A DNA stretch of 34,347 bases from a virus. Shown piece after piece: positions 580 through 30,383 of the stretch. The notes beneath the pieces are model-generated. The model made no database searches, was not told where the DNA came from, and saw nothing but the letters and a program-made list of their open reading frames with translations. The number at the start of each line of letters is the position of its first letter. Position 1 is the first letter of the stretch. A program made the translations under genes and the position numbers. The stretch covers positions 1 to 34,347 of IMG/VR virus record IMGVR_UViG_3300025425_000078; one strand, given 5' to 3'.

Positions 580-3500
580 TTATTTCGAGAACTGATATAA
601 TCCGTCTAAATCAGCATTGTTGATTGGTAGTCCTTGTTTGGTTTTAAATTTAAAGTTATCTCTTGCTTTAATAGAATTTTCTAATGAAAAATTACCAGTA
701 TCATCTTTGGTACTTTTAAAGTTAGTTCTTGTTCTAATAATTTCTTCTTCTACAGCAGTGTGATAAGTTTTGATTATTTGTTTTAAATATCTTGCTTTAG
801 TCCCATCATCTTTATTATTATTATCTAAAACTATAGGGTCACTTAATCTATTATAGTAATCAGAATTGATTACATTTTTTAATCTGTCATCTAAAGATAA
901 ACCACGAATTTTTACTTTACCTAGTAATTCCATTTGCTTATTGTAAGCAGTTTGTCCATCACCACTTTTAAATAAAGTTAAATCAATGTCTCCTCTAAGA
1001 GTATCATTCATTGTAGGCATATTTATACCTAGTCTTAAAACTTCCTCTGCAACAGGGTCATCAATTTGTTCTGAAGTTGTGAATGGATTAAATAGACCAT
1101 TAAATAATCTTGTACCTTCAGTACCATGTATTCTTAATTTGTTACCTCTGAAATCATATTTATCTTCAACTTCTCCAAAGCCACTTCTTTTCTTAGCGAC
1201 ATCTAGAATAGTTTTAGTATCTTTATAAAAAGGGTCATTAACTAGTTTTGTCCATACGTTAGGAATGAATGAACCTATTTTAGAATTTTTATAGTTCTTC
1301 CATTTTGAAGTATCATCACTTGTTAAAACTTCCATAAAATCAGCAAGACCTTTTAAATAAGTTTTACTTACTAAATTTCTAGAAGCACCTGTCCATAAAG
1401 CACCACCAATATTAGCTAAATTATCTGCTGTCGATAAATAGTCGCTAGTATCACCACCTTGTTTAGCTAAAAGAATAAGCATGTTGCCACCAACACGTCT
1501 CATGTCTTCTTCACTTAGTTTGTCATACTGCTCGTTAAAATCTGCCATGATGCCAAAGAAAGCACCAAATGGGTCAAACCTTCCGAATTGAACATATTTA
1601 TGTTTTCCACTTTCTTCATCAAAATATCTAAAAGCATAAGGTAATGCTCCAGTATTTTTCTTTAAATTTCTTAAATCTGTTGAACTTGTAAAGCCTTCTC
1701 CTGCTAACTGTCCTTGACTACCTGTAATAATACCTTCTCTGTGTAATATAGAGCCTAGTGTTAAAAGGGTTAAGCCTGTTGCCATTCCACCTCTAGCTTG
1801 TGCCATTCTTTCTGCACCTGCTCTACCAAAGAAGTCATCTCTAAATTTACCTCTTGCAAAGCCTAATGGTGTTCTGTCTACGACATTTAACATTAAATTT
1901 ACAGGTGTTCTAATGAAAGGAATAATCTGTTTTATGAAAGGAAAATCATTAGCAATATCCTGAACTTTTTTAAATATACCATCTAATTCTTGGGTATATG
2001 TATTTTCATCAGCTTTTCGCATTGCTGTTTTATTTAATGCACCACCAAACTCATCAAAACCTGCATCAAAGTAATCACTTACAAATTGGTCAAATTCTGA
2101 AATAGGTTTTTTAGTTTTTAAATCTGAAGCAACTATTTTAGTTCTGCTTTTGCCATTCTCTATTGCAAGGTCTACACCTTGTTTTTCTAATTCTGTTCTA
2201 TAAGTAATTTGTCTAAAAAATTCATCTTCAGCATTAAGAAATTTAGTAGGGTATCTTATAGCTTTACCTACTCTATTTATTATTTTACCTGATGTACTAT
2301 CATTATCTAATACTTCTTTAAATAATCCAGTCTCAGGGTCTTTAACAAGTTTTCTCTTTTGAATTGCTTTTTCAGGAATATCTAATTTTCCTCTTTTACT
2401 TAAAATTGTATCTTCCTTAGCAAATGCTAATTTCATGTATCTAACACTATCTGTTAAGTGTCTTCTTAAACCTACATAAGTGCTAATTGCTCTCCTACCC
2501 TCTGCTCTTAACATAGCAACTTTCTCAGGATTTTCTAATAAAGATAAAGACATTCTACTGCCAACCATCTTTTCTAAAGGTCTTAGAAATACGTTAGTTA
2601 AATTAGAAGATAAGTTAATCATGTGCGTCTTAGGATTAGATAAAAGTGCATTAATCCATACTTCATTTAATATGTCCCAAGTCTTATTTTTAACAGCAAA
2701 GTTTAGAACTTTACTAATATTACTATCTCCTGCTTTTGCTATTTGGTCTATAAATATGCTAATATCTCCACCATAATTATCCATTTCTTTAAAAACTAAA
2801 TCTAAATCTTGTACTATAGGATTTTTTGCAGTTCTGCCTGACATTCTTAATGTCTGACCTGAACTTCTTCCTATTGATAATTTTTGTTCATTAATAACTT
2901 TCCATTTAGGAAAGAAACTTTTTTGAAAATATTCTTGAATTTGTGGTTCTTTATTGGATAATTTAGCTAACCTTTTTCCACTATTTGCTAGTGTTTCAAT
3001 ATAACTATTCATTGCCATGATTTTATGTGGTGCTGTCTTCATCACATTTTCTAAGTCTTTAATATCTATTTCTAACTTATTAGGATTACTTCCATAAAGT
3101 TTTCTTGCTGTTTTCTCTACAACTTCATCACTTAAAATAATTCTTTTACTTTTAATTAATTTCTCATAAGTTTTATTGAAACTATCTAAACTAAGTAGAC
3201 CATCTTTATCTAAACTAAGAAATTGTCTAACATTAAAGTTTAAACTTAAATCTAAGTTTTCAATATTACCATCAAACATTTCTTTGTTTGGTGAAGTCTT
3301 TTGTGCATTTTGAAATTGTGTTACAACTGCATCATCTAAATCTTTTTGAAGACTTTCTTTAGCTATAATTGTTTCACTATCTGATATAGGTTTATATCTA
3401 GATTTAACTATGTCTTCCTCTTTAATTTCTTTTAAATATGTTTCATCTTCAGCTAATTGTTTTTCATTAACTGCTTTACCTTCTGCTAATCCTTTACGAT

Positions 3501-4275
3501 TTTTAAAATATCTAAATGTTCTTAATCCTGCTTCAATACCACCACCAACTAGTCCACCTTCTAAAGCATTTTTAAATCTTGCTTCATAAAAACCTTCGTC
3601 TTTTCCTTCTGAACTTAAATAATCAAATAAAGGATTTTCTAGAGATGGAGCAAACTCTGTTACCATATCTACTAGTCTTCCAGTTTCTTCATTAAATGCT
3701 GTAAAGTCTGCGATTGCACCTTTACCCATCATCTTTGTAAATTGACCAGTCTTTGATGCTTGGAAGAATGGAGATATTTTCTTAGACGCACCAGTTAATT
3801 TTCCTGCTACTCCTAAAACTTTACCACCAGTGAACCAACCAGTTGAAAATTGTGCTATACCTTTAGCTAGATTACCTTGCCATGTATGAGGGTCTCCATC
3901 AAAATCAGGTAGTGTTAAGCCATCATTGACACCTTTTTCACCAAATAATAGACCTTTACGTTTATTAGCTTTAAATTCTGCGAAGTTTTCGTAGCCTATT
4001 CTACCATTTTCTGCGTCTTTACCAAATACAAAGCCACCAATATTAGTCGCTTCTCCTAAAGTGTCACTTAATCCCTCTGCGAGGTCAACTGTCGACTGAA
4101 TACCATCTCTAACCCCATCTACAACCCCTATACCTACGTCAGCTATAGCACCTCTTTTCTTACGGAAAGTATTAAACTTATCCTGTGCCATATAATTATT
4201 CATAACATCTTCAGAAGTTCCTTCAGGAAAGTCTAAATATTCACCATTAGGTGCTTGTTTTCTTATAGTTGTCAT
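580..4275 (-). CDS. Internal virion protein, T7 gp16-like (ejected core protein)
   Basis: This is the largest gene here (1231 aa), last of the internal core genes and directly upstream of the fibre, which is the T7 gp16 position. T7 gp16 is 1318 aa. The product is expected to form part of the inner core and to be ejected into the cell envelope as a DNA conduit. Seen in the sequence: Gly-rich, weakly hydrophobic stretches near residues 45-75 and 150-165, long Lys/Glu/Asn-rich helical regions, and a segment near residue 820 (FIKQIIPFIRTPVNLMLNV) of a kind common in gp16-like proteins of marine phages. I see no lytic transglycosylase motif of the sort found at the N-terminus of T7 gp16. The start ATG overlaps the stop of the upstream gene as ATGA. 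The call rests mainly on size and synteny. Confidence 0.78.
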   Translation of the reverse strand: MTTIRKQAPNGEYLDFPEGTSEDVMNNYMAQDKFNTFRKKRGAIADVGIGVVDGVRDGIQSTVDLAEGLSDTLGEATNIGGFVFGKDAENGRIGYENFAEFKANKRKGLLFGEKGVNDGLTLPDFDGDPHTWQGNLAKGIAQFSTGWFTGGKVLGVAGKLTGASKKISPFFQASKTGQFTKMMGKGAIADFTAFNEETGRLVDMVTEFAPSLENPLFDYLSSEGKDEGFYEARFKNALEGGLVGGGIEAGLRTFRYFKNRKGLAEGKAVNEKQLAEDETYLKEIKEEDIVKSRYKPISDSETIIAKESLQKDLDDAVVTQFQNAQKTSPNKEMFDGNIENLDLSLNFNVRQFLSLDKDGLLSLDSFNKTYEKLIKSKRIILSDEVVEKTARKLYGSNPNKLEIDIKDLENVMKTAPHKIMAMNSYIETLANSGKRLAKLSNKEPQIQEYFQKSFFPKWKVINEQKLSIGRSSGQTLRMSGRTAKNPIVQDLDLVFKEMDNYGGDISIFIDQIAKAGDSNISKVLNFAVKNKTWDILNEVWINALLSNPKTHMINLSSNLTNVFLRPLEKMVGSRMSLSLLENPEKVAMLRAEGRRAISTYVGLRRHLTDSVRYMKLAFAKEDTILSKRGKLDIPEKAIQKRKLVKDPETGLFKEVLDNDSTSGKIINRVGKAIRYPTKFLNAEDEFFRQITYRTELEKQGVDLAIENGKSRTKIVASDLKTKKPISEFDQFVSDYFDAGFDEFGGALNKTAMRKADENTYTQELDGIFKKVQDIANDFPFIKQIIPFIRTPVNLMLNVVDRTPLGFARGKFRDDFFGRAGAERMAQARGGMATGLTLLTLGSILHREGIITGSQGQLAGEGFTSSTDLRNLKKNTGALPYAFRYFDEESGKHKYVQFGRFDPFGAFFGIMADFNEQYDKLSEEDMRRVGGNMLILLAKQGGDTSDYLSTADNLANIGGALWTGASRNLVSKTYLKGLADFMEVLTSDDTSKWKNYKNSKIGSFIPNVWTKLVNDPFYKDTKTILDVAKKRSGFGEVEDKYDFRGNKLRIHGTEGTRLFNGLFNPFTTSEQIDDPVAEEVLRLGINMPTMNDTLRGDIDLTLFKSGDGQTAYNKQMELLGKVKIRGLSLDDRLKNVINSDYYNRLSDPIVLDNNNKDDGTKARYLKQIIKTYHTAVEEEIIRTRTNFKSTKDDTGNFSLENSIKARDNFKFKTKQGLPINNADLDGLYQFSK

Positions 4276-6068
4276 TTATTCGTTTCTCCTATGGATTTTT
4301 TAAACATTTCTTTAGTTATTTTATATTTACTTTGAAAATTTGCTGAGTTCATTCTTTGTGCATCTGTTCTTCTTAATGCTATTTCTAACTCAGTAAAACC
4401 ATAAGTATTCTTTTTAGCTGTTTTTTTATCATCAAAGGTAACCTCAGAAACTTCAAATGATTTTAGTTCTTCAGGATTTACAACAGTAGTTTGCTTACTA
4501 GAACTGTCGTCTCCATAAGTAGGTTTATCTTTTGATGCTTCAATTAATTCTTGTTCTTCTTCTTGAAATCTATTTCTAACCCAGTCTTTAAATTTTGTTC
4601 TTCTATCAGCTTTAGTAAAACCAAGCTGTTCTCCTGCTACTGGATTTCCTGTTTCTCCTATAGGGTGATTGGCTAACCATTCAATAGCATCTTGTCTAAA
4701 TTGAAATTTTAAAGCAGGGTCTACATTGTTTATTAGAGAACCTTTTGAATTTGATATAATATCTTGCATAATTCCATCTATTCTGTTTTCAAAATGTCTG
4801 TACGTTTTTGAATTTAATAAAGGGTCTTCACCTGAAATTTTAAAATTACTAATTACATCTTTGTAATCATTATAAAATTTTTGTTGTATTTTACTTTGAT
4901 TTTCAACAAGAAATTCCATTGCTTCAGTGTATTTACCTGTTGTAATTAATTCGTTTAAGTTTTCTTCAATACCCATTTCAGTTTGTGAACTAAAACCAGT
5001 TTGTCTCTCAGAAAATATTTTTTTGATTTTTTCTTTTTTATAAGATGAATAAGTGTCCCATCTAGGGTCTTCTTCTTTAGCTTCATTAAAAGTTATATAT
5101 CTATCTGCAACAGTTAGACCTTCTAGATATTCACCTTGTCTTAATGCTTCAGTTCTTTCATTCCTATCTTTTATTTCTGCTGTCGTTCTATCTTGAAGTT
5201 TATCTTTAATTTGAAACAAATCATCTTTAAGACCTTTAATATCTCCTAATTTACCAGTTCCTAATTCTATATGTTTCGGAAGTTCTTCTAATATTTTCTC
5301 TGCATATTCATAGTCACCAGTTTTGTCAGCATAATCTGTTAGTGTTTCTAATAGATACTTTTGTGCTGAACCATTACTTAAACCATTTGCAGTTTTATCT
5401 TTTATAAATGCTGATATGTTTGCACCAATTTCTGCAAAACTTTTACTTTCATCAAAAAGACCTTGAATACTATTCTGAAAATTAATTTTATATTGTTCAC
5501 TAATATTAGCCATTTGTGAACTAACATGAGTTTGAAATAATTGTGCTTTAAATCCTGAAGTTTTTTGAAAGAAACCATTTTCTAAATCTATGGGTTTATA
5601 AGCACCTAAATTATTTTTAGCTACATACTGTTTAATTTCTTGTGCATAAAACTTTTGAAATGCTTCTGGGTCAGGATTTTCTGAAACTTTCATTTCAGCA
5701 TATTTAGTTCCTAACATATTAGAAAATATTTGTGCTTTAGTATTAAGTTCTAACTCTTTATATTTATCAATAAAATAAGGATTAGCTTCTTTTGGAAGTG
5801 TTCCATTATTAACTCTAGTATTAAATGCTGTTCTATTTGCATTATATTCTTTTAAGGCTTCAGCTTCATTTACTTTCTTTTCTTTAACTTCAGAAGCAAT
5901 AACCATTTTTGCACCTGCATTATTAACAAAATTATTCAAAGAAGCAGTCAATTCTTTCATACCTGCTATTTCAGGCTTTACTTGTGGTGTATAAAATAAG
6001 TTAAAGTCTGAGGATAGAACCTGTCTTGCATCAGGTTTTAAATCTAGTTTATCTGTTTTTCTTGCCAT
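4272..6068 (-). CDS. Internal virion protein, T7 gp15-like
   Basis: A 598-aa protein, highly charged and Lys/Glu/Asn/Gln-rich, predicted to be mostly helical, with no membrane segment or enzyme motif. It lies between the gp14-like and gp16-like genes, where T7 has gp15 (747 aa), a core protein ejected with DNA. The start codon overlaps the gp14-like stop as TAATG, and its stop overlaps the next start as ATGA, so the three core proteins are probably translationally coupled. Sequence similarity to T7 gp15 is not obvious by eye; the call is mostly from position and composition. Confidence 0.7.
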   Translation of the reverse strand: MARKTDKLDLKPDARQVLSSDFNLFYTPQVKPEIAGMKELTASLNNFVNNAGAKMVIASEVKEKKVNEAEALKEYNANRTAFNTRVNNGTLPKEANPYFIDKYKELELNTKAQIFSNMLGTKYAEMKVSENPDPEAFQKFYAQEIKQYVAKNNLGAYKPIDLENGFFQKTSGFKAQLFQTHVSSQMANISEQYKINFQNSIQGLFDESKSFAEIGANISAFIKDKTANGLSNGSAQKYLLETLTDYADKTGDYEYAEKILEELPKHIELGTGKLGDIKGLKDDLFQIKDKLQDRTTAEIKDRNERTEALRQGEYLEGLTVADRYITFNEAKEEDPRWDTYSSYKKEKIKKIFSERQTGFSSQTEMGIEENLNELITTGKYTEAMEFLVENQSKIQQKFYNDYKDVISNFKISGEDPLLNSKTYRHFENRIDGIMQDIISNSKGSLINNVDPALKFQFRQDAIEWLANHPIGETGNPVAGEQLGFTKADRRTKFKDWVRNRFQEEEQELIEASKDKPTYGDDSSSKQTTVVNPEELKSFEVSEVTFDDKKTAKKNTYGFTELEIALRRTDAQRMNSANFQSKYKITKEMFKKSIGETNK

Positions 6069-22363: not shown

Positions 22364-24058
22364 TTAAATACAGAAAAATACAGACTGTTTAACAAGGTCT
22401 AAATCCAATTTTCCCTTTGTAGGCATTTTTGGGAATTTCTTCTGGTTCTTCTCAGAAAGCATTGCATACATTTCATCAGCAAAATTCTTCAGCACATCTT
22501 TCTCATATATCTCACAAAATGCTTCTCTTAGTGCTTTTCCCATTAAATGACTGTCACTAGCTACACAACCGAAGCTGTCATGTATCATACTGAAGTTATC
22601 TACTCCTAACTCTTTAGCTTTAACTACACATAGCTGTAAAACTGCACCATCTAGTTGATGAATATAATTTGGGCAGATACCGAGACTGGTGGCTCGTCTA
22701 GAAATTTTATTAGTATCATGTGCTATGGAAAGTTTGACTATACTATCACCCATTTGTGTCTTAACTCTTTTACTTTCCTTTTCATAACATAACATCTGAA
22801 TAGGAAAATTATTAGGGGAAGTCCAACATACAGGTAAGTTTTCAGATGCAACAAGTTTTGCTATATCTTTTAAGTATTGCATAATATTCTTTGCACCTAC
22901 AATAATCTCATTGATACTCTCCCATAGAATAGGTGTGAGCCAGTTAGTTGCATGGAATATACCATCTTCTCTGTCTGATATTCTAAAGGTTTCTAAAGAC
23001 ACTCCTCGTTCATTAAATTGTTTCCTCATGTGTTCTTCAATATATTTTCTACATGAGAATTTAGTTAATGAGTAAGGCAAACACATCACTGGTTTCTTAC
23101 ATATCTTTCTGTCTATTCCATAGTCTATCCACTTCTTAGCTAAGGGTTCAGATTTCATATCCCTAAGTTTCATAATAAGTTTTTGTGCAACTAAATTATA
23201 AACATCACTAGGTTTATTAGATGGTATGAGATTAGTAGCCTTGCCCCCTATTTCATCTCTCATCATTGCTGAGTAGTGCTGTAGTCCACTATTAGAGCAA
23301 TCAGCTTGAATAGGTAGTGTAGTTATAAAGTCAGGTGAATAATCACTCTTAACAAAATCTCTAAATTCTAAAGCCCATGCAAGAAAACAATAAGGTTTAT
23401 CTGCACTAGCCCACCATGTGTCTTCTAAAGGTTTATCTGCTGATGCAATTATCTTATCAGTATTATCTTTGACCCATTGTTCTCTAATAGATAATTCTTC
23501 CTTATCTACTTCTCCATATAAGTTAGCACCTGCTATTGCAAAAACACTATAGCTATCATTATTACCCATTCGCTTACCAAACTTAAATGTAAGTAATGCT
23601 CTTGAATAATCTGCTGACTGTGGGGATAATAAACTTGGCTTAGGATATACACGACCTCTGAAGTCCAACTGATAAGGATAAAAGAAACCCCCCTTATCTA
23701 ATAACAAACTTGCTTCTTCCATGATTAGTCTAACTTGAATAAATTTAGACATAGCTTGACCCATAGATTTATGAACATGTTGTGCTTCACGTTTCCATTT
23801 TATCAAAGCATCTTTATTAGTTTTAATGTCAAATGGTTTAGGTGGTAACTCCATTGCTCTAGGATTTACTGGAAGCTGACCTAAGTTAAAATCATTCTCC
23901 ATACATGTCTTGATTACGTTATATATAGGCTTATTAATAACCCATTCAGTTTCTTGTATTATATTTACACTGTCATAAACAACAGGCATCTCATGTACCT
24001 TATTATTTAATTCTTCTAAATATCTTCTATTACTTGCTTTTACTAAATTGTAGTGCAT
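22364..24058 (-). CDS. T7-type RNA polymerase, C-terminal catalytic part (second half of split gene)
   Basis: A 564-aa protein holding the polymerase domain of a T7-type enzyme. Catalytic residues: D253 in QADCSNSGLQHYS (T7 D537), R317/K321/Y329 in RKICKKPVMCLPY (T7 R627/K631/Y639), and D494 in MIHDSFG (T7 D812). It begins at the point matching T7 residue about 410 and has no N-terminal promoter-binding domain of its own, which is on the gene just upstream. The ATG overlaps that gene by 29 bp in the +1 frame and has its own ribosome site AAAGGA 8 nt upstream, so independent initiation is likely. The product probably pairs with the N-terminal part. It ends FFCI where T7 ends FAFA. Confidence 0.92.
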   Translation of the reverse strand: MHYNLVKASNRRYLEELNNKVHEMPVVYDSVNIIQETEWVINKPIYNVIKTCMENDFNLGQLPVNPRAMELPPKPFDIKTNKDALIKWKREAQHVHKSMGQAMSKFIQVRLIMEEASLLLDKGGFFYPYQLDFRGRVYPKPSLLSPQSADYSRALLTFKFGKRMGNNDSYSVFAIAGANLYGEVDKEELSIREQWVKDNTDKIIASADKPLEDTWWASADKPYCFLAWALEFRDFVKSDYSPDFITTLPIQADCSNSGLQHYSAMMRDEIGGKATNLIPSNKPSDVYNLVAQKLIMKLRDMKSEPLAKKWIDYGIDRKICKKPVMCLPYSLTKFSCRKYIEEHMRKQFNERGVSLETFRISDREDGIFHATNWLTPILWESINEIIVGAKNIMQYLKDIAKLVASENLPVCWTSPNNFPIQMLCYEKESKRVKTQMGDSIVKLSIAHDTNKISRRATSLGICPNYIHQLDGAVLQLCVVKAKELGVDNFSMIHDSFGCVASDSHLMGKALREAFCEIYEKDVLKNFADEMYAMLSEKNQKKFPKMPTKGKLDLDLVKQSVFFCI

Positions 24059-25007
24059 CTGCTATTTCCTTTGGTTTATTTTCAAAATTATGTTTTTTTC
24101 CATAGTAACCCCCCAAAAATGGTGACGACCATTTGCGAGGTGGCATTAACATTGGTAAAAATTTTGGAAACAATGCTTCATTCTTAATGTTGAAGTTTTT
24201 TATTTCCTTAATAATTTTAGGTGTAGGTTGAACATAAGTAATAGTCTTAGTCTTATTAAGTTTCATATTACCTACTTTAACTAAGCCTAATAACTCACAG
24301 AGATGTATCATCTGAACACCTAAATGAAGCCTATGCTCTTTAGACCAATCATCAAATTGAAGTTCATGCTTGTTCATACAATAGACCCAAACATTCTTCT
24401 TATACTGCCATCTATTGGTCTTCTGGGGTATGTTTCTACCTTCTAATCGCTTGGCTACCTGATTATATTCAGTCTTCTTCTGCTCTTTAAATAGAAGTAT
24501 TCTAGCTTCAAGCATGAGAGCATTACCTAATACAATAGATAATTTATTTAAGGTACATTCACTAGAGATACCATCAATAACATTCTTTAATATTATCAAT
24601 GAACAAGTATCAAATATACTCTGGTTGTTAGACATCTTTTTAGTGTCTTGATTAAAAGCATTTTGAGATAAACATTGAACTATCTTTTTAACTGCTATGT
24701 GATGTGTTCCTACTTGACCAGTCTCTATTTTTTCCACCTTCAAATAAATTAAACTAGAAAGTTTATCTATATATTTTTGTTGTTGAAATAGACCATACAT
24801 GGTCGTACTCTCTTGTTTCTTAATCCTAGCTTCAGTGACTAGGTGCTGATACCTGTCAATACCACCTCTTATCATCTTCTCCTCGAACTCTATTTCTTCT
24901 TGTATTTTTTTAATGTAATCTTCTTTATCTTTAAATTTACCACCTACTCCAACCTTAACTAACTCAGCTAATTGTTCTTGTAGTAAGTTTGCTTGTGTAT
25001 CAGACAT
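24030..25007 (-). CDS. T7-type RNA polymerase, N-terminal part (first half of split gene)
   Basis: A 325-aa protein corresponding to the first 400 or so residues of T7 RNA polymerase. Its last conserved block 'LFPKFLPMLMPPRKWSS' followed by GGYYG matches T7 'PMVCPPRPWTGITGGGYW'. The early part 'FEEKMIRGGIDRYQHLVTEA' and 'VGTHHIAVKKIVQCL' fit the N-terminal domain, which binds the promoter and the initiating RNA. After GGYY about 20 residues (rich in Lys, Asn and Glu) have no T7 counterpart before the stop. Together with the next gene the total is 889 aa (T7 883 aa). There is AAGGA about 11 nt before the ATG. Either a natural two-subunit enzyme or a frameshifted gene. Confidence 0.85.
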   Translation of the reverse strand: MSDTQANLLQEQLAELVKVGVGGKFKDKEDYIKKIQEEIEFEEKMIRGGIDRYQHLVTEARIKKQESTTMYGLFQQQKYIDKLSSLIYLKVEKIETGQVGTHHIAVKKIVQCLSQNAFNQDTKKMSNNQSIFDTCSLIILKNVIDGISSECTLNKLSIVLGNALMLEARILLFKEQKKTEYNQVAKRLEGRNIPQKTNRWQYKKNVWVYCMNKHELQFDDWSKEHRLHLGVQMIHLCELLGLVKVGNMKLNKTKTITYVQPTPKIIKEIKNFNIKNEALFPKFLPMLMPPRKWSSPFLGGYYGKKHNFENKPKEIADALQFSKSK

Positions 25008-25291: not shown

Positions 25292-25376
25292 TGGTAGGCG
25301 AAAAAGGACTCGAACCTTCACCTCTTGCGAGACCAGTTCCTAAGACTGGCGTGTCTACCAATTCCACCATTCGCCC
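25292..25376 (-). tRNA. tRNA-Leu (anticodon TAG)
   Basis: A complete 85-nt tRNA on the minus strand. The acceptor stem is GGGCGAA/TTCGCCT (one G-U pair), D arm GTG/CAC with GGTAGA, anticodon stem CCAGT/ACTGG with loop CTTAGGA (anticodon TAG), a class II variable arm CTC-GCAA-GAG, T arm GAAGG-TTCGAGT-CCTTT, discriminator A and an encoded CCA. The long variable arm and A73 fit leucine. It lies between the integrase gene and the attP-like repeats. It could serve phage translation, restore a host tRNA disrupted by integration, or both. Confidence 0.93.
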
Positions 25377-25406: not shown

Positions 25407-26636
25407 TTATTTAATCAACCCTTTTGAGTTATGACCTATTAAAGAAATTACGTTACTATCATTAATACTATTAACAGCTTCTCTTAATGCTTCAGGTGTT
25501 TCTTGTGCATAGTATTTTAGTACAGTCTCAATGCTTATTCCTGCAAGTTTTGAGATAACTTTAACTGGTGTTTTTGTTTCACATAATCTTGTAATGAAAG
25601 TATGTTTTGTTGAGTATGGTGTGAAGTCTTTTATCTCTAATATCTTCCCATACTTTTCAAAAAAAGTTCTCATACTTCTTACAGTTACATTCGGAAATAA
25701 CTTTCTAGACTTATGTGCTATCGCAGTCTCTCGATATTTAACACAGATACGATAAGCAATATCATTTAGAGGTAAATCACCTGACCATTGCTGTGTCTTA
25801 TGACGAAAAAAATTAATAGTCTTATTCTTATAATCAATACAATCTATAGTAAATTTAGCATCATAAAATTCAAACTGTAATCTTTGACCTAAACCATTAA
25901 TTAAATACTGCATTGCATCTGCATGTTCTTCATCATTATTAGCATAAGCTAAATCAATAACTTTAATTTCATCTTCTCTACTAATTGGTTTCTTACTTTT
26001 ACTTTTAATAACACGCAGGTTACTCCAACCCATATCTCTAATTCTTAAATCTGCATTAAGTAATTTAGACTGCTCTAACATTCTTTTTGATATAGCTTCT
26101 CTAAAAGTTTCTCTTAATACTGAAAGTCTATGATTAGTTGTTCTGGTATTAAAGGTAGCTAAATTATTATTAGGTCGTTCAATGATTGTCTTCTCCATGT
26201 ACTTAATGAAACCATTGTAGTAACCATCAGTTTGCATGTCTTCAAGTTTAATATCTGGTGAGAAATAATTTAAAATATCTCTAATATAAATTTTAATATT
26301 TGTCTCATTCCCCTTGCCTTCCCACTGCTTAGTGTAAGTCATCTCCAAACAATCTTTTAGTGTTCCATGAGTTATAACCTTCTTACCATTCTTTCTTGAA
26401 TGATAATTTGCTGAAGTTAATTGTTCAAGATGTTTGGCTTTTATCTCTATAGCTTCTTGTAGTGATTTCTTAAAAGAAGTATCACTGTTATCTAATATAC
26501 TAACAGTATCATAAGCACTGTCCTTAACTTCTTGACCATCAACTATCATTCTTTTTCTTGTTTGAACTACAAGTAAATTATCTCGTTTAAGTCTGATACC
26601 TGCATGTAGTTTTAATATAGCTTCTCTACTGTTCAT
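25407..26636 (-). CDS. Tyrosine-type site-specific integrase
   Basis: A 409-aa phage integrase. The N-terminal half is a Lys-rich arm- and core-binding region, and the C-terminal catalytic domain has R252 (LGQRLQFE), K280 (FRHKTQQWSGDLPL), the box 'TPYSTKHTFITRL' (337-351) and the nucleophile near Y375/Y376 (TVLKYYA). Compared with the usual H-x-x-R-H and L-G-H boxes, the first His is Tyr341, the Arg is Lys344, and the last His position is Ile367. The enzyme would insert the phage into a host tRNA-Leu gene. AAGGAG lies 5 nt before the ATG. It is followed by the tRNA and attP-like array, as in many temperate phages. Confidence 0.93.
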   Translation of the reverse strand: MNSREAILKLHAGIRLKRDNLLVVQTRKRMIVDGQEVKDSAYDTVSILDNSDTSFKKSLQEAIEIKAKHLEQLTSANYHSRKNGKKVITHGTLKDCLEMTYTKQWEGKGNETNIKIYIRDILNYFSPDIKLEDMQTDGYYNGFIKYMEKTIIERPNNNLATFNTRTTNHRLSVLRETFREAISKRMLEQSKLLNADLRIRDMGWSNLRVIKSKSKKPISREDEIKVIDLAYANNDEEHADAMQYLINGLGQRLQFEFYDAKFTIDCIDYKNKTINFFRHKTQQWSGDLPLNDIAYRICVKYRETAIAHKSRKLFPNVTVRSMRTFFEKYGKILEIKDFTPYSTKHTFITRLCETKTPVKVISKLAGISIETVLKYYAQETPEALREAVNSINDSNVISLIGHNSKGLIK

Positions 26637-26644
26637 GTTACTCC

Positions 26645-27076
26645 TTATATTGCTGTCATTAATTTAGAACTACCAAAGATAGCAGGTATAGGTTCTTGCG
26701 TTGAACCTAAAAAGAACTTCTGTAGTTTCTTGCCTTCACCAGTTAATTCAACATATGTATATCGCTTATCTTCTGCGAATGGATTATCTGCATAGTTAAT
26801 TAAAGCTAATGTTTCATGTAAGTATGTAAGTGTTCTACTTAATGAAGATTGATTAATACCTCTGCCTAAAATATTATTAAAATGATATGAGATACTTTCA
26901 GTTGACATCTCATTATCTTTTAAGATTAATATTATCTGTAACACTGCAACATAGTGAAGTGGTACTCCATTGGTATGTAAAGTCTTACCTTGTTTCTGCT
27001 CTACCTTCTTAATGTAATTCAAGAAGTGTTGTGTAAAACTTAAACTAAAGACTGCTTTTTTGTATTGCTCTCTCAT
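26645..27076 (-). CDS. MarR-like winged-helix regulator, 143 aa
   Basis: A 143-aa protein with a winged-helix layout: 'VAVLQIILILKDNEMSTESI' (first helices), 'GRGINQSSLSRTLTYLHE' (recognition helix), then a wing 'KRYTYVELTGEGKKLQKFF'. This order, ending with the 'LTGEGKKL' turn, is typical of MarR-family DNA-binding proteins. It lies directly upstream of integrase (8 bp gap) and could act as a second lysogeny regulator or an excision control factor. A good AAAGGGG ribosome site precedes the ATG. The fold call is fair; target unknown. Confidence 0.65.
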   Translation of the reverse strand: MREQYKKAVFSLSFTQHFLNYIKKVEQKQGKTLHTNGVPLHYVAVLQIILILKDNEMSTESISYHFNNILGRGINQSSLSRTLTYLHETLALINYADNPFAEDKRYTYVELTGEGKKLQKFFLGSTQEPIPAIFGSSKLMTAI

Positions 27077-27847: not shown

Positions 27848-28010
27848 TTGTTGTTTTCCTTACATTAGAACAGCTAAGAAGCTGTCTCTGTTTATATAAA
27901 GAAAGATAAATTACTTCAGTATTAGGCTTTAAATCATTTCTGATTTTAGCTACTACTCTCTGTAATTTATCACTTAATATTTCGTGTTGTTCAAAGAGAA
28001 ATAATTGCAT
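27825..28010 (-). CDS. Hypothetical protein, 61 aa
   Basis: A small protein (MQLFLFEQHEILSDKLQRVV...) with a helical N-terminal half and a basic C-terminus. Its ATG overlaps the upstream stop as TAATG, so it is translationally coupled to the 71-aa gene before it. It belongs to the leftward operon facing the repressor, the position of cro/cII-like genes in other phages. There is no recognisable domain. Confidence 0.58.
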   Translation of the reverse strand: MQLFLFEQHEILSDKLQRVVAKIRNDLKPNTEVIYLSLYKQRQLLSCSNVRKTTNGNSKYS

Positions 28011-28225
28011 TATAAACTTACCTTTCTCAACATACGTAACTCACCTTTTGTTGCTAGTTCTTCAGCACTAGGTGTCAGCTTCATACTATCATTTACTTTA
28101 GTCTGAGCCTGTTTTCTTTTGTGTATATTTTGTATTGCTGTTGTTAGTCTACTCACCTGTGTATTTAGGTCAGCTACTTGTACTTGCAGTACAGTTACTT
28201 GGTCTTTTAGTTTTCTATTAAACAT
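28010..28225 (-). CDS. Small coiled-coil protein, 71 aa, first leftward gene
   Basis: A 71-aa protein whose residues 5-38 form regular heptads (LKDQVTVLQVQVADLNTQV), followed by a Lys-rich segment. This suggests a dimeric coiled coil with a basic tail, possibly nucleic-acid binding. It is the first gene of the operon opposite the repressor, preceded by TAAGGAG 5-6 nt before the ATG and by a consensus promoter overlapped by operators. By position it is a candidate antirepressor or Cro-like factor, though it has no HTH. Confidence 0.62.
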   Translation of the reverse strand: MFNRKLKDQVTVLQVQVADLNTQVSRLTTAIQNIHKRKQAQTKVNDSMKLTPSAEELATKGELRMLRKVSL

Positions 28226-28267
28226 ATCACTCCTTACAGTTAATGTTAAACATATCTGAGTTTTAAT

Positions 28268-28336
28268 ATCATATATGATTGATTTGTTTATATATACTCA
28301 TATATGAGTTGTCAACTAATAATAAATCATTTGTGA
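28268..28336. promoter_or_regulatory. Three evenly spaced palindromic operators
   Basis: Three palindromes lie between the divergent genes: ATCATATATGAT (28268-28279), ACTCATATATGAGT (28296-28309) and the weaker TCATTTGTGA (28327-28336). Their centres are 28273.5, 28302.5 and 28331.5, exactly 29 bp apart, so a bound dimer would sit on about the same helical face each time. The middle one fills the spacer of the leftward promoter and the first lies at its probable start site. This is the expected design for cooperative repressor binding by the adjacent rightward gene product. Confidence 0.72.
28287..28315 (-). promoter_or_regulatory. Leftward sigma70 promoter of lysogeny/early operon
   Basis: On the minus strand TTGACA (28310-28315), a 17-bp spacer and TATAAA (28287-28292) form a near-perfect host promoter. 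The spacer contains the palindrome ACTCATATATGAGT, so repressor binding there would block RNA polymerase. Transcription would start near 28280, about 55 nt before the first gene (28225). Confidence 0.8.
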
Positions 28337-28345
28337 AATTAATTC

Positions 28346-28374
28346 TTGATTATGAGTTTAGTATATGATTATCT
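28346..28374 (+). promoter_or_regulatory. Possible rightward promoter of repressor gene
   Basis: TTGATT (28346-28351), 17 bp, TTATCT (28369-28374) on the plus strand lies 18 bp before the repressor ATG, just beyond the third palindrome. It is a moderate sigma70 match in AT-rich DNA; TATGAT at 28364 is an alternative -10. If the start is close to the ATG the mRNA would have a very short leader, which fits the lack of a clear ribosome site. Confidence 0.45.
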
Positions 28375-28391
28375 TTCATTTATAAAAAAAG

Positions 28392-29162
28392 ATGGTAGAT
28401 ATGATAAAAGTTAATAACATAGTAGAGTTCAACCCAAAAATGACTGACGTAAAATATACCTTAGAAACTATATCTAAATATATTAATCTTCTTATAGCTA
28501 AAGAAGGTAGGGATAAGATTGTAGAAAAATCAGGTATTGATAAGAATATTTTATATAGATTATCTACTGGTGGTAATACTAATCTCGATAAATATTTAAA
28601 GATTAGAAATGCTTTTCCTACAGCATTTAAAGATAAAGTAGAGAGTAGTTTATTATCTGATTGTCCTATCTTAGGTCAAATAATAGAAGACCATAAAGTT
28701 AGATTGTTAAATGTATCTCAACCTACTTCATTTAAAGTATTATCAAATACAGCTAAACAATTCTCACCTTTGTTTGGCTATTTAAACGTATCAGCTACAG
28801 CTTATACAAATTCTGTTCACCTGTTTTCTACATCTAATCTTAATAGTGATATATTAAATAAGCAGTGTATTAATAGAATAATTATGGCTTACCCAGAAGA
28901 CAATAACCCTATTTATTGTTTAGCTATGTCCGACCAAAAAGGTTATCAATTAGTTGAACCCTTAACACGAAAAGTGATAATGACTGTCCCTATTAAAAAT
29001 AATGTTAAATGGGCTAAATGGATTTCACTTACTTCATTTTCATCAGCTGAAAATATTAAACCTGATGAAAACAACGAGCATGACCATCTAGTTAATGAAC
29101 AGTATATAAAAGATGTTCAATCTATAGGTACTCAATTACGAGAAATGTTAGACAAAAAATAA
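28392..29162 (+). CDS. Lysogeny repressor-like HTH protein, 256 aa
   Basis: The only plus-strand gene in the window, facing the leftward operon across the operator region. The N-terminus looks like a helix-turn-helix domain: 'ISKYINLLIAKEGRDKIVEK', 'SGIDKNILYRLSTGGNTNL' and 'DKYLKIRNAFP' (residues 27-77) follow the order of phage repressors. The C-terminal half (about 90-230) is a beta-rich domain with 'CINRIIMAYPEDNNPIYCLA', resembling the dimerisation part of CI-type proteins, but I see no Ala-Gly self-cleavage site. It probably binds the three palindromes and controls lysogeny. The start could also be the ATG at 28401. It is followed by a bidirectional terminator. Confidence 0.72.
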   Translation: MVDMIKVNNIVEFNPKMTDVKYTLETISKYINLLIAKEGRDKIVEKSGIDKNILYRLSTGGNTNLDKYLKIRNAFPTAFKDKVESSLLSDCPILGQIIEDHKVRLLNVSQPTSFKVLSNTAKQFSPLFGYLNVSATAYTNSVHLFSTSNLNSDILNKQCINRIIMAYPEDNNPIYCLAMSDQKGYQLVEPLTRKVIMTVPIKNNVKWAKWISLTSFSSAENIKPDENNEHDHLVNEQYIKDVQSIGTQLREMLDKK

Positions 29163-29163
29163 A

Positions 29164-29257
29164 AGTAGGAATGTAATTAGTTTTTATTAGTTGGACTACT
29201 GGTTTTATTAAGTGGGAATGTACTATCACTATAAACATAAGTGGGAATGTACTATCA
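29164..29257. repeat. Three direct repeats at right boundary of lysogeny module
   Basis: Three copies of a related 17-18 bp element lie in the same orientation: 29164-29180 (AGTAGGAATGTAATTAG), 29211-29228 and 29240-29257 (both AGTGGGAATGTACTATCA). The first is the partner of the copy at 25380-25396, so the elements bracket repressor, small genes and integrase. They may be promoters (minus strand reads CATTCCCACTTA), binding sites or recombination scars. A minus-strand promoter here would run antisense through the repressor gene. Confidence 0.62.
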
Positions 29258-29279
29258 TTATTTTATCATACAAATACAA

Positions 29280-29311
29280 AAAAACCCTAAGAAATACAAC
29301 TCAGGGTTTTT
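29280..29311. terminator. Bidirectional intrinsic terminator after repressor
   Basis: AAAAACCCT / AGGGTTTTT arms (with a further AG/CT pair inside) flank a short loop; A- and T-runs on the outer ends give a U-tract on either strand. It ends the rightward repressor transcript 120 bp after the stop and also closes the leftward antirestriction operon, whose last small gene ends at 29326. Confidence 0.8.
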
Positions 29312-29325
29312 AAGTTTTTATTTAT

Positions 29326-29457
29326 TTAATTATTAAAGTTTTTAATTAAATCTTTGTATCTTTTTTCTTTTTGTAAATTAGCCCACGTTCCGTTGTAGTC
29401 TCTAATTAAAATTGTAATACAATCTTTTAGTTCTTTTTCTTTTTTAGATATATTCAT
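29326..29457 (-). CDS. Small hypothetical protein, 43 aa
   Basis: A 43-aa ORF (begins MNISKKEKELKDCITILI, contains RDYNGTWANLQKEKRYKDL). Its ATG overlaps the antirestriction stop as TAATG and it ends just before the intrinsic terminator, so it is the last gene of that operon. It is charged and helical. Coupling and position support it; function is unknown, perhaps a partner of the antirestriction protein. Confidence 0.6.
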   Translation of the reverse strand: MNISKKEKELKDCITILIRDYNGTWANLQKEKRYKDLIKNFNN

Positions 29458-30383
29458 TATGCCACCTTCTTTAGTTCGTTAGTTTGTAACTCATTTAAAA
29501 AGATTAAAGACTTGTTAGCTAGTCCACTGGCGTTCATTAGTGCGTTTGGTTTATCTTTTAAACATTTAACCCATGATTTTAAATATTTAGCATGGTCAGT
29601 TCTAGGACTTGCACTTATGCCTAGTTGATTGCATAAAAAAGCACTACCCATCTCAGCAACTAATTCTTCAAATGCATAAGACGTTGAACCCTTCCAACCG
29701 TCAAGTTTTCTATTGCATCTACTTGATGCACCTGTCCAGTGTGTAAGTTCATGGAATAAAGTACCATAATATCCATCAGTTGCACTGGCATTAGCTGTCT
29801 TTATAAAGTTACTTTTACTAGGCATTGAAATAAAATCTTTAGACGGTACGTAGTAAGCATTGCCACCGTCTAAGTGTTTTATATTTGCACCAGTATTAGC
29901 AATAAAAGTTTCAGCAGTAGCACTAACTTCTACTTCACTTTTATTATTAACATTGTCAACATTATCCCATCTAGATATATCCCCATCTACATCTTCAATA
30001 TTAAAAGCATTAAAAGTTGTAAAATATTTATAATGCTTTTTAGAAGTTTCAACACCTGTAGGTGTCTCTACTTCAACATCTTTAGAACCAATAATTGGTT
30101 TTAACATTGGTATAGCTTTAGAACCCTTCTTTATTTGTAGACCTTTATTTTTCCACTGTAAAAAAGTTCCATATATTTTACGGTCTCTAGGCTTATCATC
30201 TAAAAAACCACCATCAATCATTGATAACCAAAATAAATTCATTCCTGAATATTTATGTCCATCTAAGTTCTGAAAACTTTTATTAGTCCAACCCTTTAAC
30301 CATTTTGAATTGTCATCACTTTCCATCTGTTTAATTAAATGCTCAGTGACTTTTTTTACTATGTCGTTTGCTTTTAAAGTCAT
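29457..30383 (-). CDS. ArdC-like antirestriction protein with zincin domain
   Basis: A 308-aa protein with the two parts of ArdC proteins. The N-terminal ssDNA-binding domain shows 'HKYSGMNLFWLSMIDGGF', 'YGTFLQWKNKGLQIKKGSKA' and 'YFTTFNAFNIEDV'. The C-terminal zincin-like domain has H211-E212-H215 in LFHELTHWTGAS and a probable third ligand E240 in FEELVAEMG. ArdC-type proteins protect incoming DNA from restriction in plasmids and phages. Expression from its own early promoter, near the place where T7 keeps ocr, fits protection at genome entry. The acidic stretch 130-152 is a linker. The family call is strong; the mode of action is uncertain. Confidence 0.9.
   Translation of the reverse strand: MTLKANDIVKKVTEHLIKQMESDDNSKWLKGWTNKSFQNLDGHKYSGMNLFWLSMIDGGFLDDKPRDRKIYGTFLQWKNKGLQIKKGSKAIPMLKPIIGSKDVEVETPTGVETSKKHYKYFTTFNAFNIEDVDGDISRWDNVDNVNNKSEVEVSATAETFIANTGANIKHLDGGNAYYVPSKDFISMPSKSNFIKTANASATDGYYGTLFHELTHWTGASSRCNRKLDGWKGSTSYAFEELVAEMGSAFLCNQLGISASPRTDHAKYLKSWVKCLKDKPNALMNASGLANKSLIFLNELQTNELKKVA

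Follow-up and report, generated by a model that had tools for sequence, protein, structure and literature searches.

The palindromic region upstream of gene 28401-29162 most probably belongs to a CI-like lysogeny/immunity switch of a temperate T7-like SAR11 phage, in which repressor–operator pairs would be exchangeable between related phages. The window, i.e., the whole stretch of DNA that was analysed, is a virus record of 34,347 bases, the right third of which is 83.8% identical to Pelagibacter phage HTVC011P over 56% of the stretch searched. This integrase-carrying phage (Stopavirus, Autographiviridae) is the nearest named relative, and by its sequence the window is a close relative of the temperate HTVC011P and a T7-like phage of SAR11. 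T7-type RNA polymerase and integrase, features of temperate Autographiviridae, are both present. Downstream of the palindrome region, the minus strand carries the integrase, tRNA-Leu and polymerase, and a lone gene points in the opposite direction:

28401 to 29162, plus strand: repressor gene, 253 aa, with an XRE-type helix-turn-helix (HTH) N-terminal part and a beta-rich C-terminal part resembling CI/LexA; alternative start at 28392
28228 to 28247, no strand assigned: conserved block with the leader and ribosome site of the first leftward gene; 15 viral contigs carry it exactly, and it bounds the exchanged cassette on the left
28010 to 28225, minus strand: gene that opens the leftward operon; its 71-aa product is coiled-coil-like
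26645 to 27076, minus strand: MarR-like gene adjoining the integrase, a weak assignment (NCBIfam TcaR, E 0.011, under the cut-off)
25407 to 26636, minus strand: tyrosine integrase (Pfam PF00589, E 1e-7; phrog_1, E 8.4e-25)
25292 to 25376, minus strand: tRNA-Leu adjoining the integrase, likely an attachment-site relic
22364 to 25007, minus strand: T7-type RNA polymerase in two overlapping ORFs (PF14700, E 3.6e-11; PF00940, E 1.4e-92), presumed main lytic target of the switch
29280 to 29311, minus strand: terminator-like hairpin at the end of the repressor unit

Translation of the repressor from 28401 is favoured over that from 28392, given that in relatives this ATG is preceded by a GGTGG ribosome site and position 28392 carries GTG. 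The protein is 55% identical to AGE60535.1 of HTVC011P. Family searches gave no Pfam and no NCBIfam family and at best E 0.018 in PHROGs, and comparison with PDB sequences returned just one unrelated match (E 0.11). In the AlphaFold model, built from 14 sequences (mean pLDDT 60), a four-helix HTH occupies residues 21-71 (mean pLDDT ~78-89 over residues 21-70), and its fold matches HipB (Z 8.4 over 62 residues), SinR (Z 6.7) and other XRE proteins. The fold nearest to the C-terminal part is that of lambda CI (2hnf, Z 7.6, 115 residues, rmsd 3.9 Å), followed by 186 CI (2fkd, Z 7.4, 105 residues) and LexA (3k2z, Z 6.2), in a model of low confidence (mean pLDDT 60) and with Z values of 7-8 being common by chance according to the structure-comparison tool's own note. 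The best Foldseek match of the model was LexA (E 0.0088), with no match at E ≤0.001, and a second structure model was no better (pLDDT 57); the second domain can be called CI-like with low confidence.

Lambda CI has an Ala/Cys-Gly cleavage site and a Ser-Lys dyad and undergoes RecA-dependent self-cleavage; 186 CI is not known to have either that cleavage site or the dyad. Self-cleavage looks unlikely for the window repressor: in 13 homologues inspected by eye, neither Ala-Gly nor Cys-Gly occurs after PILGQ, and beyond residue 89 no Ser is invariant.

The predicted operators and the promoters between the divergent genes are as follows:

28268 to 28279, no strand assigned: predicted operator O1, ATCATATATGAT, a perfect palindrome centred at 28273.5, lying a little downstream of where leftward transcription is inferred to start
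28296 to 28309, no strand assigned: predicted operator O2, ACTCATATATGAGT, a perfect palindrome centred at 28302.5, within the leftward promoter spacer, 29 bp from O1
28327 to 28336, no strand assigned: weak operator-like site O3, TCATTTGTGA, 8/10 to the core, upstream of the leftward -35 and next to a 10-bp segment that three relatives lack
28250 to 28259, no strand assigned: operator-like site O0, ACATATCTGA, 8/10, located 19 bp to the left of O1; relatives have TTATATATGA here, 9/10
28359 to 28368, no strand assigned: weak operator-like site O4, TAGTATATGA, which abuts the -10 of the inferred repressor promoter
28287 to 28315, minus strand: early leftward promoter P_L, TTGACA-N17-TATAAA, exact in sequence, reading away from the repressor gene and toward the integrase and RNA polymerase
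28344 to 28372, plus strand: inferred repressor promoter P_rep, TCTTGA-N17-GATTAT, both hexamers and their location being conserved among the type I relatives (defined below)

The preliminary description had spoken of three operators with an exact 29-bp spacing; O1 and O2 are indeed perfect and 29 bp apart, but the third site is weak (8/10). The common core of O1 and O2 is TCATATATGA, of which the window holds exactly two exact copies, these two, and they account for two of the nine perfect palindromes of at least 12 bp in the 34,347 bases. A match of O3 quality at exactly +29 or -29 has a chance of ~1.2%, a post hoc figure with the core derived from O1 and O2 themselves. Counting a further site at 28376-28385, six sites matching the core at 8/10 or better lie within the 175 bp at 28226-28400, of 27 in the whole window. 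The 29-bp spacing had also been taken to place the sites on one helical face, which it does not imply, because 29/10.5 gives 2.76 turns and neighbours are offset by ~85 degrees; O1 and O3, 58 bp or 5.5 turns apart, are on opposite faces. Same-face cooperativity from this spacing is ruled out by the helical geometry and by the lack of conservation of O3. Spacings of 19 and 29 bp, which differ by about one turn, recur: 19 bp for O0-O1, 29 bp for O1-O2, and for O2-O3 29 bp in the window and 19 bp in the contigs L019/L022, with 19 or 20 bp between the arms of the type II element described below.

The palindromes had likewise been placed over a TTGACA-N17-TATAAA promoter. This promoter is exact and is covered by O1 and O2, the former at the inferred transcription start and the latter filling the spacer, but it lies on the minus strand, from 28315 to 28287. 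A consensus scan found 9 promoter-like sites in the window against 12.5 expected, and P_L was not among them because the scan demands a final T; taken alone, the promoter sequence of P_L is no more than chance. At the sequence level, the predicted operators overlap both divergent promoters, O1 and O2 lying on P_L and the weak O4 on P_rep, where its position at the -10 makes autoregulation of the repressor possible.

A profile search with the repressor found 24 viral IMG/VR contigs with homologues, which together with the window, HTVC011P and HTVC041P gave 27 loci; 26 were typed, L054 being left out since its upstream DNA is missing. The type I operator, TCATATATGA, occurs at 6 of the 26 loci, and the type II operator, an imperfect inverted repeat CTGATA-N16-20-AAATCAG with arm cores 19-20 bp apart, at the other 20, including that of the isolate HTVC041P. 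The type II core pattern gave 17 stretches, of which 10 (L032-L041) look like chance matches and were dropped because the rest of the type II element is absent. Operator type agrees with repressor clade in 26/26 loci, the type I repressors forming a clade with support of 1.000 in the repressor tree; several loci are near-duplicates, so the number of independent lineages, estimated by eye from the tree, is smaller, about three for type I and about eight for type II. The earlier proposal that the palindromes are operators of the divergent repressor at an early promoter is supported by this co-inheritance of site type and repressor clade.

Type I comprises the window, HTVC011P, L029/L007, L019/L004, L022/L005 and L017/L003/L043, the last three names denoting a single contig, the window's sibling, whose repressor is identical to that of the window. 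The O1 core is perfect in all six, through a repressor divergence of 45%. With positions given relative to GTCAAC, the site at -61 (O0) is kept in the type I relatives at 8-9/10 and the O2 place at -13 at 7-10/10, so the 29-bp distance between O1 and O2 is conserved. A regular 29-bp triplet is not found in the relatives: apart from the window and its sibling, O2 as a palindrome is degraded (7-9/10) in the four others and is not palindromic in HTVC011P, and of the six sequences only the window and its sibling have O3 at +29. In place of O3, L019 and L022 carry a site that matches at 8/10 and is 19 bp away from O2; in HTVC011P and L029 that region holds no site of at least 7/10. The counterpart of O4 matches at 8-9/10 at the corresponding place in L019/L022 and is absent there in HTVC011P. 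In P_L, the -35 is kept among the type I relatives as TTGACA/T and the -10 is poorly kept (TATGAG or TAGAAA). At the ten type II loci measured (10/10), the arm cores lie at -62 and -42/-43 from the -35 block, 19 or 20 bp apart; O0 and O1, at -61 and -42, sit almost where the type II arms do.

The two named phages illustrate the two types. HTVC011P (genes 1805-2584 and 2703-5561) has the gene order of the window, an identical O1, and a conserved -35 and P_rep; unlike in the window, O2 is degraded and O3 and the 10-bp segment are absent. In HTVC041P, gp1 is a divergent repressor homologue (42%) ahead of the early operon, as in the window, but the element is of type II instead of TCATATATGA and the first early gene is a different one. 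Both repressor genes are annotated "hypothetical protein".

One metagenome contig, represented by L025, L015 and L050, shows what looks like an immunity-cassette exchange. Over 6,276 bp, up to precisely where the leader block ends, it shares 99.0% identity with HTVC011P; the next ~844 bp, exactly the operators, promoters and repressor, are dissimilar, and similarity resumes at 94% from the last codons at the 3' end of the repressor gene. The L025 repressor shares 40% identity with the HTVC011P repressor and 92% with the L028 repressor. This single contig could be misassembled at the conserved leader block. However, the window itself shows an independent mismatch in the reverse direction: its MarR-like protein is 92% identical to those of type II phages, against 83% for the HTVC011P protein, but its repressor and operators are of type I. 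Type II also occurs in an isolate, HTVC041P. Repressor and operators thus appear to be inherited and exchanged together among related phages, and the leader block may be where recombination between cassettes is anchored.

We propose the following mechanism. The 28401-29162 protein, a CI-like repressor, would bind the TCATATATGA-form palindromes at O1 and O2, and the flanking sites more weakly, and would thereby block P_L, a promoter for the host polymerase. Unblocked, P_L would drive the leftward early operon, its transcripts presumably reaching the RNA polymerase gene ~3 kb downstream as well as the integrase. Without the phage RNA polymerase the T7-style lytic cascade could not start, so a prophage would remain silent and related incoming phages would be repressed; relief of repression would release the cascade. 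Related phages would carry different repressor–operator pairs as a swappable cassette. What the comparisons show directly are the sites, the promoter sequence, the conserved positions, the joint inheritance of site type and repressor clade, and the exchange pattern; we infer that the repressor binds and represses, acts cooperatively, regulates its own gene via the weak site close to P_rep and confers immunity.

In the immunity regions of lambda CI and 186 CI, an HTH repressor acts at several operators over divergent early and repressor promoters, and the regions are exchangeable. The window resembles them in its HTH repressor, in several predicted operators over divergent promoters and in the exchangeable region. 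It differs in that no sequence similarity to them was detected, the presumed target is a phage RNA polymerase, no Cro-like gene was identified, and no conserved cleavage residues were seen.

Such a switch had been called unexpected in a T7-like phage, a view that is not supported, as temperate T7-like phages are known (PMC10134795) and HTVC011P carries an integrase; what was not to be expected is the kind of regulator, which is CI-like and not the MarR-like protein that has been put forward for phages of this sort. It is nevertheless conceivable, though unlikely, that the repressor just tunes early expression or excludes superinfecting phages and that stable lysogens are no longer made. Searches of the genome collection yielded no prophage carrying this repressor or leader: the repressor pattern gave 278 matches, none of them a relative, and the 20-bp leader block 28228-28247 gave 0 exact matches. 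LUZ100, which has similar temperate features, is likewise reported to have given no confirmed stable lysogen (PMC10134795). At the same time, podoviral pelagiphages such as HTVC019P and HTVC022P are reported to integrate (PMC10134795, PMC12753301), and the cassette exchange is what would be expected for immunity. The window integrase is intact (88% identical to that of HTVC011P) and the tRNA-Leu is retained, both of which fit a temperate life.

MarR proteins bind palindromes. A MarR-like gene beside the integrase was proposed as the lysogeny regulator of temperate T7-like phages in the case of LUZ100 (PMC10134795). These two points leave a slim chance that the MarR-like protein 26645-27076 binds the palindromes; it is unlikely to define them because it is 100% identical in HTVC011P and L025 despite their differing operators and repressors only 40% identical. 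Moreover, the MarR-like proteins of the window and the type II phages are 92% identical although the operators differ, and in a tree of 22 MarR-like proteins the type I loci do not cluster together. The MarR-like protein therefore appears not to set these sites and may regulate elsewhere. The window is like the LUZ100-type switch (PMC10134795) in being temperate and T7-like with a MarR-like gene beside the integrase, and unlike it in that the sites and the repressor diverge from the early operon, with the sites following the XRE repressor, not the MarR-like gene.

We consider it very improbable that the sites are RNA or DNA hairpins in the early leader, i.e., an attenuator or processing site. 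The type II element does fold as a stem-loop (z -1.8 to -4.0 in 7/7 variants), but any inverted repeat folds, the window leader folds no better than shuffles (z 0.83), and O2, being within the promoter spacer, precedes any P_L transcript; site positions relative to the -35 also agree between the types though the sequences differ. That the palindromes arose by chance in intergenic DNA of 21% GC is scarcely credible: two or more palindromes of 12 bp or longer did occur in 1.6% of 20,000 dinucleotide shuffles of 28226-28400, and O3 is weak and not conserved, but an identical 10-bp core appeared twice in such palindromes in just 0.065% of the shuffles, O1 is kept through the repressor divergence noted above, and the types agree at every typed locus.

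The CI-like switch offers a candidate answer to how temperate T7-like phages restrain their own RNA polymerase, different from the published MarR-like regulator and with defined sites, a promoter and a target operon. Our literature search, mostly at the abstract level and not implying absence from print, found no account of a repressor–operator switch in HTVC011P-type phages. If the proposal is true, lysogeny control would be explained in a SAR11 phage group, and operator types would be markers for reading immunity groups from metagenomes. HTVC011P and L025, as a natural exchange pair, would be predicted to be heteroimmune, and which phages coexist in one cell may depend on the exchanged repressor–site block. 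On a wider scale, the SAR11 T7-like phages may have a lambda-style immunity economy, in which an unnamed CI-like repressor family, probably not self-cleaving, gates the T7 cascade and cassettes move between near-identical phages, making heteroimmune groups in the ocean's most abundant bacteria; we consider this about as likely as not.

Some further features of the region were observed. The RNA polymerase ORFs 22364-24058 and 24030-25007 (minus strand) overlap and hold the N-terminal and polymerase domains apart, which could be a real split, a programmed frameshift or a sequencing error; the polymerase is annotated as two CDS in HTVC041P and HTVC025P (without overlap in the latter) and as one CDS in HTVC011P. 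An ArdC-like anti-restriction protein (29457-30383, minus strand) adjoins the switch and is kept in several relatives of both operator types (78-89%). Additionally, direct repeats AATGTACTATCAC/T are located at 29217-29229 and 29246-29258, 29 bp apart, between the repressor stop and the terminator, and could be a phage promoter, an origin or a packaging signal; more copies of this repeat type are present at the same place in HTVC011P, L004 and L025.
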